From Solwaraspora sp. WMMD792 (GTDB lineage: Bacteria; Actinomycetota; Actinomycetes; Mycobacteriales; Micromonosporaceae), in the NCBI RefSeq assembly GCF_029626105.1, contig NZ_JARUBH010000009.1, positions 1,240,001 to 1,304,000 on the forward strand: a stretch of 64,000 nucleotides of DNA. The letters run 5' to 3'. The notes under the pieces are model-generated. The model saw only the letters and a program-made list of their open reading frames with translations. It searched no databases and was not told the origin of the DNA. Within the stretch, counting starts at the first letter, position 1; the number at the start of each line of letters is the position of its first letter. The position numbers were made by a program, and so were the translations under genes. Below are positions 38,253-61,312 of this stretch, piece by piece.

Positions 38253-39356
38253 GTGACTTCGACCATGACCCATACCGCCCTTGCCGACCTGGCCACCGCC
38301 CCCGGCCCGTTCGTGTCGCTCTACCTGGACACCAGCGGCCGGGCCCCAGACACCCCCGAGCAGGTCCAACTGCGCTGGCGGGCGGCCCGTCGGCGGTTGG
38401 CCGAGGCAGGCGCGCCCGACCACCTGCTCGACGTGATCGGTGGGCTGACCGGGCGGGCCCATCCCGACGGCGACACCCTGGTGGTGGTCGCCGACGCCGA
38501 CCGGGTGCGGCTGGTACGCCAACTGCCGGAACCACCGGAGCGGGAGATCGCCAGCTACGGTCCGGTCGCGCACCTGCTGCCGCTGCTGCGCTGGGAGCAG
38601 CGGCAGCTGCCCGTGCTGGTGGTGGCGACCGACCGGGTCGGTGCCGAGATCGTCGCCCTGCAGCCGGACGGTGTGGAGGTGACCGAGACGGTCGCCGGGG
38701 AGACGTTGCACATCACCCGGTCGCATCCGGGTGGCTGGTCCCAGCGGCGGTACCAGCAGCGGGCCGAGGACCGGTGGGAGGCCAACGCGACGCTGGTGGC
38801 CGAGCGGCTCACCGAACTGGTCGACGAGGTCCGCCCGCGGGCGGTCGTGGTCACCGGGGACGTCCGGGCGGTGCAGTTCCTGCGGGACAAGTCGCCGACC
38901 CGGGTCGCCGAACTGCTGCACGAGGTGCAGGGCGCCTACGACACCACCGACGCTGCGGTCGAACAGGCCGTCGACGTGGTGGAAGACATCGCCGACGCGG
39001 ACGTGGCCGCCGCCGTGGCGGCGTACCGGCGGGAGATCGGCCAGGCCGACCGGGCCGCCGGTGGGGCGTCGGACACCCTCGCGACGCTGGCCCGTCGCCA
39101 GGTCGACACCCTGCTGCTGGTCGACGGTCCGCAGCTGACGACCCGTTCGGCGTACGCCGGTCCGCAGCCCGACCAGGTGGGTGCCACGGCCGGCGCGGTG
39201 GCCGTCTTCGGAGTGACGGACCCCGTCGAGGTGCCGCTGGGTGACGCCGCCGTGCGGGCCGCCCTCGCCGGCGGCGCCCGACTTGTGGTGGTGCCGGACA
39301 AGCTCGCCGACCAGGTGCCCGACGGCATCGGTGCGATCCTGCGTTACACCGTCTGA
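38253..39356 (+). CDS. Rv2629/baeRF-like protein of hypoxic-response clusters
   Basis: 367 residues from GTG, RBS GGGAAGGA. N-terminal FVSLYLDTSGRAPDTPEQVQ, middle VVVATDRVGAEIVALQPDG and late GGARLVVVPDKLADQVPDG match the bacterial eRF1-like (baeRF/Vms1-related) family that includes Rv2629 of the mycobacterial DosR regulon. Such proteins are proposed to act on stalled ribosomes or in dormancy. The catalytic-type QRRYQQRAEDRWE segment is kept. Its place at the head of the Dos-type island supports the assignment. Confidence 0.8.
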   Translation: MTSTMTHTALADLATAPGPFVSLYLDTSGRAPDTPEQVQLRWRAARRRLAEAGAPDHLLDVIGGLTGRAHPDGDTLVVVADADRVRLVRQLPEPPEREIASYGPVAHLLPLLRWEQRQLPVLVVATDRVGAEIVALQPDGVEVTETVAGETLHITRSHPGGWSQRRYQQRAEDRWEANATLVAERLTELVDEVRPRAVVVTGDVRAVQFLRDKSPTRVAELLHEVQGAYDTTDAAVEQAVDVVEDIADADVAAAVAAYRREIGQADRAAGGASDTLATLARRQVDTLLLVDGPQLTTRSAYAGPQPDQVGATAGAVAVFGVTDPVEVPLGDAAVRAALAGGARLVVVPDKLADQVPDGIGAILRYTV

Positions 39357-39394
39357 CCGGGCGGCCGGGACATCCGACCCGGCTGGCGGGCCGG

Positions 39395-40270
39395 TCAGCG
39401 GTGCGAATGCGGGCGGGCCACCAGCACCGGGCAGTGCGCGTGGTGCACCAGCGTCTGGCTGACCGAGCCGAGCAGCAGCCCGGTGAAGCCACCCCGACCG
39501 CGGGAACCGACCACCACCAGACCTGCCTTGCGGCTCGCCTCGACCATCACCGCGTCCGCCTCGACCCCTTCCAACGGCCGCTGCTCGATAGGCAGGTCCG
39601 GATGGCGTCGCCGGACGGCGGCGACCGCGGCGTCGAGCAGTTCGTCGGCCTCCCGGCGGGCACTGTCGGCCGGCGCCGCGACTTCGGTGCTGTCCCGCAT
39701 CGGACTCGGCCACCACACGTGGAGTACAGCCAGCCCGACCCGGCGCGCGGCGGCTTCGTCGGCCGCGGCGTGCAGGGCCTGCTCCGCGTGCGCCGACCCG
39801 TCGACGCCGACCAGCACCGGGCCCTCCGCCTCGACCGGCGCGTCCGGTGGTCGGACCACCAGCACCGGGGAGTGCGCGTGCCCGGCCACCTGTGAACTGA
39901 CCGAGCCGAGCAGCAGTCCGGTGAAACCGCCGAGGCCCCGACTGCCGACCACCACGAGCTCCGCGTGCCGGGACTCCTCGATCAACGTCGGTGCCCCGCC
40001 GGCCGCCACCTGCCGGGTCTGCACCGTGATGCCGGGCCGCTCGGCGCGCAGCTGCGCGGCGGTCTCGGCGAGCATCCGCTCACCTTCCTCGTTCGGCCCG
40101 GGCAGTTCGCCGTCGTACGGATTGATCGGGATCCCGTACCCGAAGGCGTGCAGATAGCCGTGGACCAGCACCAACGGCGCGCCGTGCCGGACCGCGGCCT
40201 CGGCGGCGTGTCGGGCGGCGCACAGGCTGGCCGGTGATCCGTCCACCCCTGCGACGATCGGGTCACTCAT
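39395..40270 (-). CDS. Tandem-domain universal stress protein
   Basis: 291 residues, two UspA domains (1-145 and 147-291). Each has the ATP-binding pattern: VAGVDGSPAS with [20 protein letters not shown], and [11 protein letters not shown] with [20 protein letters not shown]. Such G-2x-G-9x-G(S/T) proteins bind ATP; mycobacterial relatives (Rv2623, Rv2005c) act in hypoxic growth arrest. ATG overlaps the nitroreductase stop (ATGA). Confidence 0.93.
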   Translation of the reverse strand: MSDPIVAGVDGSPASLCAARHAAEAAVRHGAPLVLVHGYLHAFGYGIPINPYDGELPGPNEEGERMLAETAAQLRAERPGITVQTRQVAAGGAPTLIEESRHAELVVVGSRGLGGFTGLLLGSVSSQVAGHAHSPVLVVRPPDAPVEAEGPVLVGVDGSAHAEQALHAAADEAAARRVGLAVLHVWWPSPMRDSTEVAAPADSARREADELLDAAVAAVRRRHPDLPIEQRPLEGVEADAVMVEASRKAGLVVVGSRGRGGFTGLLLGSVSQTLVHHAHCPVLVARPHSHR

Positions 40271-60435: not shown

Positions 60436-60449
60436 AGGGCATAGGTCCC
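60436..60449 (-). promoter_or_regulatory. DosR-like half-matching box between stress protein and ppdK
   Basis: AGGGCATAGGTCCC keeps GGTCCC and GG of the consensus. It lies just after the stress-protein stop and 94 bp upstream of the ppdK ATG. Weak on its own. Confidence 0.3.
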
Positions 60450-60451
60450 GG

Positions 60452-61312
60452 TCAGTCGCCGGCGGGCGGCCGGGGGCCACCTTCGCGGACGATCGCCGTC
60501 GCGCACCCGGCATGGTGCAGCACCGCCTGGCTGACCGCGCCGAGCGGAACCCGCAGCGGATGGTCGCCACGGGCTCCGACGACCACCAGCCCGGCCTGGG
60601 TGGAACGCTCGATCAGCACCCGGGCCGGCGGGCCGTTCACCACCTGCTGGCGGACCGCGACGTCGGGATGCTTCTCCTGCCACGGGGTCACCGCCGCGGC
60701 GAGTTCGTCGGCGGTCGCCGCCGAGGCGTCTGCCCAGCTCGACTCGCTCTCCCAACTGCGCACGACGATCAGGTCGCTGCCCCGTTGCGCGGCGGCGTCG
60801 AAGGCGAAGCCGAGCGCCCGCTCCGAGCCGGCCGAGCCGTCCACGCCGACCAGCACCGGCGCGGCCGGTTCGGGGGCCGGCTCGGAGCCGGCCCGGGCGA
60901 CCAGCACCGAGCAGTCGGCGCGGGCAGCGATCTGTACGGCGAGTGCGTCCAGCGGCAGGCAGGTCCACCGGGCCAGATCCCCGTCGCCGATCACGATCAA
61001 CGACGCCATCCGGGACTCCCGCAGCAGCGCGGTGGCCGGGGCGTTCTCGGACACCTCGGTGGTGACGTCGATTCCGGGGGCGGTCCGGGTGGCGATCTCC
61101 ACAGCGCGTTCGACGAGCTGGTAGGCGTCCGGCTGGGGTTCGTCGCCGCCGGACAGGTCGTCCGGGATCCAGTTGAGGGCGTGCACCAGCCGCAGCGGCC
61201 GGTGCGCGGTGGCGGCTTCCCGGGCGGCCAGGGCGACGGCGGCCCAGCTGGATGCCGAGTCGTGGACGCCGGCCACGATCCGGTCGCGGGCCGGTGCGGC
61301 GTGCTCCGACAT
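60452..61312 (-). CDS. Tandem-domain universal stress protein (divergent first domain)
   Basis: 286 residues, RBS AAAGGAG. The first domain (RIVAGVHDSASSWAAVALAA) has altered nucleotide loops (LIVIGDGDLARWTCLPLDAL). The second ([40 protein letters not shown]) is also degenerate in its glycine pattern. It may not bind ATP. It is upstream of PPDK, separated by 109 bp. Confidence 0.85.
   Translation of the reverse strand: MSEHAAPARDRIVAGVHDSASSWAAVALAAREAATAHRPLRLVHALNWIPDDLSGGDEPQPDAYQLVERAVEIATRTAPGIDVTTEVSENAPATALLRESRMASLIVIGDGDLARWTCLPLDALAVQIAARADCSVLVARAGSEPAPEPAAPVLVGVDGSAGSERALGFAFDAAAQRGSDLIVVRSWESESSWADASAATADELAAAVTPWQEKHPDVAVRQQVVNGPPARVLIERSTQAGLVVVGARGDHPLRVPLGAVSQAVLHHAGCATAIVREGGPRPPAGD

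Follow-up and report, generated by a model that had tools for sequence, protein, structure and literature searches.

A DosR/OsdR-type gene island with pyruvate formate-lyase in Solwaraspora sp. WMMD792, and candidate regulator boxes in its relatives

The window analysed here is a stretch of 64,000 nucleotides from the 7.4-Mb genome of Solwaraspora sp. WMMD792 (Micromonosporaceae; contig NZ_JARUBH010000009.1, positions 1,240,001 to 1,304,000), and all positions below are numbered on it. At 38253–61312 lies an island (≈ 23 kb) in which a DosR/OsdR-type response regulator and a DosT-like sensor kinase are accompanied by genes for universal stress proteins (Usp), Acg-family proteins, a CtpF-like ATPase, an Rv2629-like protein, pyruvate phosphate dikinase (PPDK) and pyruvate formate-lyase (PFL) with its activase (PflA). 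Genes were called by simple coding statistics and families assigned by Pfam/NCBIfam scans, which found the families that a preliminary description of this DNA had proposed, coordinates included (Table 1); likely starts were revised for usp1, ctpF, usp2, usp4, ppdk and usp5. Usp domains are concentrated here, nine of the ten in the whole genome (E up to 0.001), from five of six genes, falling within the island (binomial, 2e-12). All three Acg proteins exceed the NF047509 cut-off of 199 bits. The Rv2629-like protein is assigned by its baeRF_family2 domain, its NF052289 score staying below the equivalog cut-off. The best models for the CtpF-like protein are Ca pumps with scores below their cut-offs, and its assignment is at the level of P-type ATPase class only.

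The PFL gene is the sole PF02901 match in the genome. Its product contains the adjacent C411 and C412 and the glycyl-radical residue G722 in RVSGYAV, and the activase has a CX3CX2C motif. Gaps and overlaps between genes point to putative transcription units: the Rv2629-like gene (+), acg1-usp1 (−), the regulator gene (+), acg3-ctpF-acg2-usp2-kinase (−), the cyclic-nucleotide (cNMP)-binding protein gene with the FAD oxidoreductase gene (+), usp4-usp3-pfl-pflA (−), with a winged helix-turn-helix (HTH) open reading frame (ORF) ending at usp4, and usp5-ppdk (−).

Table 1. Genes and candidate regulator boxes of the island, in window coordinates.
Feature	Position	Strand	Evidence and remarks
Rv2629/baeRF_family2-like protein	38265..39356	+	PF18844 2.4e-33; NF052289 206 bits, cut-off 320
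usp1, tandem Usp	39395..40270	-	PF00582; second domain extends to 40270; start corrected to ATG 40270
acg1, Acg-family FMN oxidoreductase	40267..41244	-	NF047509 325.8 bits; overlaps usp1
DosR-type box before acg1, GGGTCCTACGTCCC	41280..41293		pattern match
DosR-type box before regulator, GGGACTTTGGTCCC	41409..41422		pattern match
DosR/OsdR-type response regulator, LuxR-type	41459..42097	+	3c3w DevR 4.6e-73
DosT-like sensor histidine kinase	42206..43936	-	GAF-GAF-HisKA_3-HATPase_c; 2vzw DosT GAF 6.6e-55
usp2, tandem Usp	44002..44880	-	PF00582; start 44880
acg2, Acg-family nitroreductase	44880..45995	-	NF047509 295.0 bits
CtpF-like P-type ATPase	46020..48761	-	PF00122, PF00689; start GTG 48761
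acg3	48751..49773	-	NF047509 309.6 bits; start 49731 or 49773; heads acg3-ctpF-acg2-usp2-kinase
DosR-type box between acg3 and cNMP gene, GGGACCTCCGACCC	49908..49921		pattern match
cNMP-binding-domain protein	49992..50525	+	PF00027 5.5e-8
FAD/NAD(P)-dependent oxidoreductase	50768..52078	+	PF13738 4.5e-14
pflA, PFL activase	52144..52875	-	TIGR02493 292 bits, cut-off 231.75; CPLRCQFC
pfl, formate C-acetyltransferase	52877..55120	-	TIGR01255 1143 bits, cut-off 994
usp3, tandem Usp	55227..56108	-	PF00582 1.4e-55
usp4, single Usp domain	56116..56565	-	PF00582 5.5e-30; start revised; heads usp4-usp3-pfl-pflA
winged-HTH ORF directly before usp4	56571..57077	-	HTH_24 4.2e-7, MarR_2 7.1e-7
DosR-type box before usp4-usp3-pfl-pflA, GGGACCCCAGTCCC	56648..56661	-	inside 3' part of winged-HTH ORF
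ppdk, pyruvate phosphate dikinase	57649..60342	-	TIGR01828 1200 bits, cut-off 843; GGKTSHAA
usp5, before ppdk	60452..61312	-	PF00582 1.7e-31

The regulator had been called DosR-like, and this was borne out: its best solved relative is DevR/DosR of Mycobacterium tuberculosis (3c3w), to which it aligns without gaps over 208 residues. It combines a NarL-type receiver with an HTH domain, and D54, T82, Y101, K104, K179, K182 and N183 are all kept; D54, T82, Y101, K179, K182 and N183 are residues with functional roles in this protein type. In the kinase, the first GAF domain matches DosT best (2vzw) and DosS second, a second GAF domain and HisKA_3 are present with His392 in the motif RDLHD, and His149 and Tyr171 stand at numbers identical to those in DosS and DosT. 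According to PMC4082495 (this and the other papers cited are drawn on as excerpts), His149 is the haem ligand and Tyr171 hydrogen-bonds bound O2, while positions 87, 89, 90, 97, 108, 118 and 169 differ between the two proteins. At four of these seven (87, a Gly, 90, 118 and 169) the kinase carries the DosT residue, and at 89, 97 and 108 (Ile, Asp, His) that of neither. Of the DosS-like haem kinase candidate proposed earlier the DosS/DosT type stands, and the residues suggest a DosT-like O2-binding sensor.

Candidate regulator boxes were searched as the core GGGNCN4GNCCC (loose pattern; perfect form GGGACN4GTCCC), which also fits the mycobacterial DosR box, of the same spacing. The core fits the OsdR consensus AGGGCCGATCGGCCCT (PMC5069765). 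An N6 spacing was tried, gave no excess and was dropped in favour of N4; a search with the strict mycobacterial 20-mer gave no match, and an inverted-repeat listing did not single out the boxes. The perfect form occurs 17 times in the genome, twice in the island against 0.05 expected (P 0.0014) and 14 times outside the window, five of these inside called genes. The island holds six loose sites where the genome rate predicts 1.2 (P 0.0017), an excess also seen in intergenic DNA. Apart from the boxes in Table 1, loose sites lie at 41304 in the gap between acg1 and the regulator gene, at 39367, where two genes converge with their 3' ends, and at three positions outside the island.

The preliminary description had proposed to compare gene order with other Micromonosporaceae. 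In the six congeners fetched, the order is kept from a glycogen-debranching-like gene through a HAD gene, with gaps in two: G079 has no match for the Rv2629-like, cNMP and PPDK genes and G105 none for CtpF and PPDK. The methyltransferase gene is absent from the stretch fetched from G093; the fetched stretches contain no N. The boxes are kept along with the genes. That of 41280 recurs in all six congeners at −49 (five) or −78 (one) of acg1, and that of 41409 in all six at −49/−50 of the regulator gene; the five congeners having the cNMP gene carry the 49908 box between −84 and −98 of it, and all six carry a box before acg3; the 56648 box is identical at −87 of usp4 (GTG 56574 start) in five of six, G105 being without it. 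Intergenic boxes number 1.22 per kb in the named island-clade loci (named loci being the best 80 of 589), 1.30 in the own genus and 1.30 in other family loci, against 0.16 in comparison PFL loci; altered spacings mostly give 0.03–0.27 per kb. The comparison groups, here and for upstream regions, include two proteobacteria and Kineosporia L044.

Among 200 sampled genomes of the family, 64 have a PFL (E up to 1e-50) and 173 the kinase (E up to 1e-40). All 64 PFL-bearing genomes have the kinase, compared with 109 of the 136 without PFL (P 2e-5, uncorrected for relatedness), and in at least 19 of the 64 the two genes are within 15 kb; two of those 19, G175 and G154, have a broken and a partial PFL, respectively, as the copy near the kinase gene. 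Full-length PFL matches of the family are 73–98% identical to the window PFL. Three family genomes have seemingly split or broken PFL genes (L150, L151 and a second copy in G175), which may be assembly errors.

A FastTree phylogeny was built from 142 PFLs, with L149–L151 (PFL matches under 650 aa) excluded. To be counted as linked, a PFL had to have within 8.8 kb a gene for a Usp, an Acg protein, the kinase, PPDK or the regulator (the last at 55% identity or more); loci short on one side (L007, 6.8 kb), L117 with its cNMP neighbour and L133 with an Acg gene at the edge were counted as unlinked. All 62 linked rows of the 142 fall into a single clade (85 rows, local support 96), which comprises Streptomyces, Actinomadura, Sphaerisporangium, Acrocarpospora, a Frankiaceae metagenome-assembled genome, Kineosporia (unlinked) and Micromonosporaceae. 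Outside it stand the Cellulomonas, Microbacterium and Kocuria types and a second Streptomyces type, none of whose 30 rows is linked. These have the same PFL/PflA pair, at 68–73% identity to the window PFL, and only weak matches nearby: L032, for example, has an Acg-like gene (30%) and L045 a regulator (33%). The tree shows 11 changes in the state of linkage against a mean of 46.2 after shuffling, and none of 500 shuffles was as low. With 62 of 142 rows linked, Solwaraspora is no exception in having PFL near such genes. Unlinked PFLs form two more groups, one in genus g30 of the family (L145–L148) and one in Streptomyces/Kitasatospora (L024, L028, L034, L036, L041, L046, L047, L065); a box precedes PFL in some of their members (L146, L147, L148, L047, L065).

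Of 57 Micromonosporaceae loci from other genera, 39 have a box within 250 bp before PFL itself (altered spacings, 0–5 of 57), as do 10 of the 16 named linked loci outside the family (controls 0–5). In the own genus no exact box stands directly before PFL (0/6), which sits behind usp4-usp3. After removal of four named loci whose PFL is identical to that of fetched genomes, 49 of the 81 clade rows have the box, made up of 30/59 linked and 19/22 unlinked PFLs. By comparison, it precedes four of 213 control genes having 60 bp or more of intergenic DNA in 20 windows of relatives (4/317 overall) and none of 27 non-actinobacterial PFLs. That it also precedes PFLs without island neighbours is, in these data, the strongest sign of a regulatory association.

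The island is probably the form taken in this Micromonosporaceae genus by the DosR/OsdR hypoxia cluster, a low-oxygen switch that would add PFL fermentation. This is supported by gene content, conserved residues, boxes, kept gene order and the Pta and AckA genes, which lie side by side elsewhere in the genome. The soluble kinase would hold haem in its first GAF domain and be inactive with O2 bound. A fall in O2, or binding of NO or CO, would let it phosphorylate the regulator, which would bind the GGGNCN4GNCCC boxes and turn on acg1-usp1, its own gene, the acg3-ctpF-acg2-usp2-kinase row and usp4-usp3-pfl-pflA; with the kinase gene inside a boxed row, this would constitute a feed-forward loop. 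PflA would then install the glycyl radical on PFL for conversion of pyruvate into acetyl-CoA and formate; Pta-AckA could convert acetyl-CoA into ATP, and PPDK could interconvert pyruvate and phosphoenolpyruvate. That the kinase binds haem, that the system responds to O2, that the regulator binds DNA, that the gene rows are operons and that PFL is active are predictions from sequence. The organised anaerobic-survival module of the preliminary description is well supported at the level of sequence, by the regulator and haem-ligand residues, the boxes and the gene order, its regulation and physiology being predictions.

Several results weigh against this reading. In the window, usp5-ppdk, the Rv2629-like gene and the FAD oxidoreductase gene all lack an exact box upstream, and few boxes stand in the corresponding congener regions tested (ppdk 1/4, usp5 query 0/12, Rv2629-like 0/5, FAD 0/6); PPDK itself is unmatched in two of the six congener blocks. 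Across the whole window the loose pattern shows no excess (nine sites, 10.3 in shuffles), and read backwards it is commoner genome-wide (1032 against 396), so that the box signal is carried only by position and conservation and not by window-wide count. The N5 spacing reaches 0.75 per kb in the named island-clade loci, mostly in Streptomyces, and the reversed pattern 0.36–0.47 per kb in the island groups; part of the Streptomyces-type signal therefore consists of general G/C palindromes. The reversed pattern also occurs in 13 of the same 57 Micromonosporaceae PFL upstream regions. An exact box within 250 bp is missing from 29 of 59 linked PFLs, among them that of the window, and eight of the 30 other, unlinked actinobacterial PFLs do have one (Fisher P 0.0024 against 49/81); the latter may mean that box control reaches beyond the island clade. 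With respect to formate, no FocA/NirC channel was found in the genome, and none of its six molybdopterin enzymes is over the formate-dehydrogenase equivalog or NarG cut-off. Two of them reach 573 and 556 of the 666 bits for formate dehydrogenase, and one is an FdhF/YdeP-family protein.

A different view is that the switch senses mainly NO/nitrite or redox state and controls stress and development rather than fermentation, PFL being little used. In line with this, OsdR affects stress and sporulation genes in Streptomyces coelicolor (PMC5069765) and the S. lividans activase is entered as a fragment (PMC6302529). PFL and PflA of Solwaraspora carry every motif checked, however, PFL is well conserved across the family as given above, and the kinase has a Gly at the O2-channel position, like DosT; we regard this view as rather unlikely. 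Still less probable is a DosR-type cluster in which PFL is a passenger under other control, such as that of the winged-HTH ORF or the cNMP protein. The winged-HTH ORF does lie just before usp4, with the box in its 3' part, and the genus has no exact box directly before pfl; but the usp4 box is identical in five of six congeners, relatives often have the box before PFL itself, including the 19 of 22 PFLs with no linked gene within 8.8 kb, and in S. lividans expression of PFL goes along with that of OsdR (PMC6302529). A chance neighbourhood of unrelated stress genes, common as Usp, nitroreductase and P-type ATPase genes are, is hardly credible in view of the clustered Usp domains, the order kept in six congeners and the 20 control windows of relatives, none of which has a Usp, Acg or PPDK match and only four a weak regulator/kinase match (30–42% identity).

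The preferred reading, a hypoxia cluster with a fermentative branch, has two kinds of precedent. The M. tuberculosis DosR (DevR) regulon shares the regulator and haem kinase families and also the Usp, Acg, CtpF-like, Rv2629-like and PPDK-like families. The Solwaraspora genes differ in forming one 23-kb block, in including PFL, which M. tuberculosis is not known to possess, and in the DosT-like character of the kinase. The preliminary description drew this mycobacterial comparison and missed a closer one, the OsdRK cluster of S. coelicolor and S. lividans (~SCO0198–SCO0219). This cluster has genes for a DosR-type regulator with its kinase, for Usps, for a nitroreductase and for PPDK (PMC5069765), and its palindromic box AGGGCCGATCGGCCCT has the same half-sites and spacing; OsdR binds at uspA, osdR and the SCO0207-0208 region (PMC5069765). 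A putative PFL, SCO0206, appears in Table 2 of PMC6302529 between PPDK and osdR; the level of this PFL in S. lividans increases together with OsdR, as seen in a strain that overproduces a protein and not under set hypoxia (PMC6302529). The OsdRK cluster differs in its nitrate-reductase and alcohol-dehydrogenase genes and in the S. lividans activase fragment, whereas in the Solwaraspora island the activase is whole, PFL belongs to the usp4-usp3-pfl-pflA row and a nar gene was not found.

PFL beside a DosR-type switch is thus already in print as a table row (PMC6302529), and the island is not new in kind. Our search for literature on PFL in Micromonosporaceae or in DosR/OsdR regulons, with subscription journals mostly outside its reach, found no paper treating PFL as a conserved target; the excerpt of PMC4601167 names PFL under FNR only. 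What is added here is that the island-linked PFLs form one actinobacterial clade, and that comparative evidence strengthens the place of PFL in the regulon.

A further candidate target is cydA (cytochrome bd), elsewhere in the genome (L193, C9:2246815), preceded by two boxes 23 bp apart, one of them perfect, at −99 and −76. Among 30 cydA-like genes from 27 family genomes, ten have a box within 300 bp upstream, compared with 1–3 of 30 for controls. In S. lividans cydAB is expressed with OsdR, and these boxes bear on the direct OsdR control that PMC6302529 leaves open. On balance we lean towards PFL and cytochrome bd both being direct, conserved DosR/OsdR-box targets across filamentous, spore-forming actinomycetes. 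It is partly understood how Micromonospora, Actinoplanes, Streptomyces and other supposed strict aerobes survive loss of oxygen in soils and sediments. The box stays with PFLs that lack island neighbours, and these 'strict aerobes' may therefore possess a haem-switched fermentation route. The association across genera predicts regulator-dependent formate under hypoxia wherever the activase is whole and, if true, would place the tuberculosis dormancy switch within an old low-oxygen programme of the actinobacteria, one of whose arms is fermentation.

Some minor features of the island may be added. The cNMP-binding protein, in which Pfam finds no HTH, shows a weak match (5e-5) to family 2B encapsulin shell proteins, in their N-terminal part, and its relatives recur near PFL in other genomes. 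Just after ppdk, a 145-aa ORF (57150–57587, −) has an alanine/valine-rich membrane-like stretch and no Pfam match. Between the convergent 3' ends of the regulator and kinase genes, 3.7 copies of a 32-bp tandem repeat occupy 42106–42224, each unit containing a GTCCCGTAGCGGGAC hairpin and the last overlapping the 3' end of the kinase gene; the array is perhaps a repeated bidirectional terminator. Similar 32-bp units occur in the congeners L082 and L084, the sole two matched by our script.

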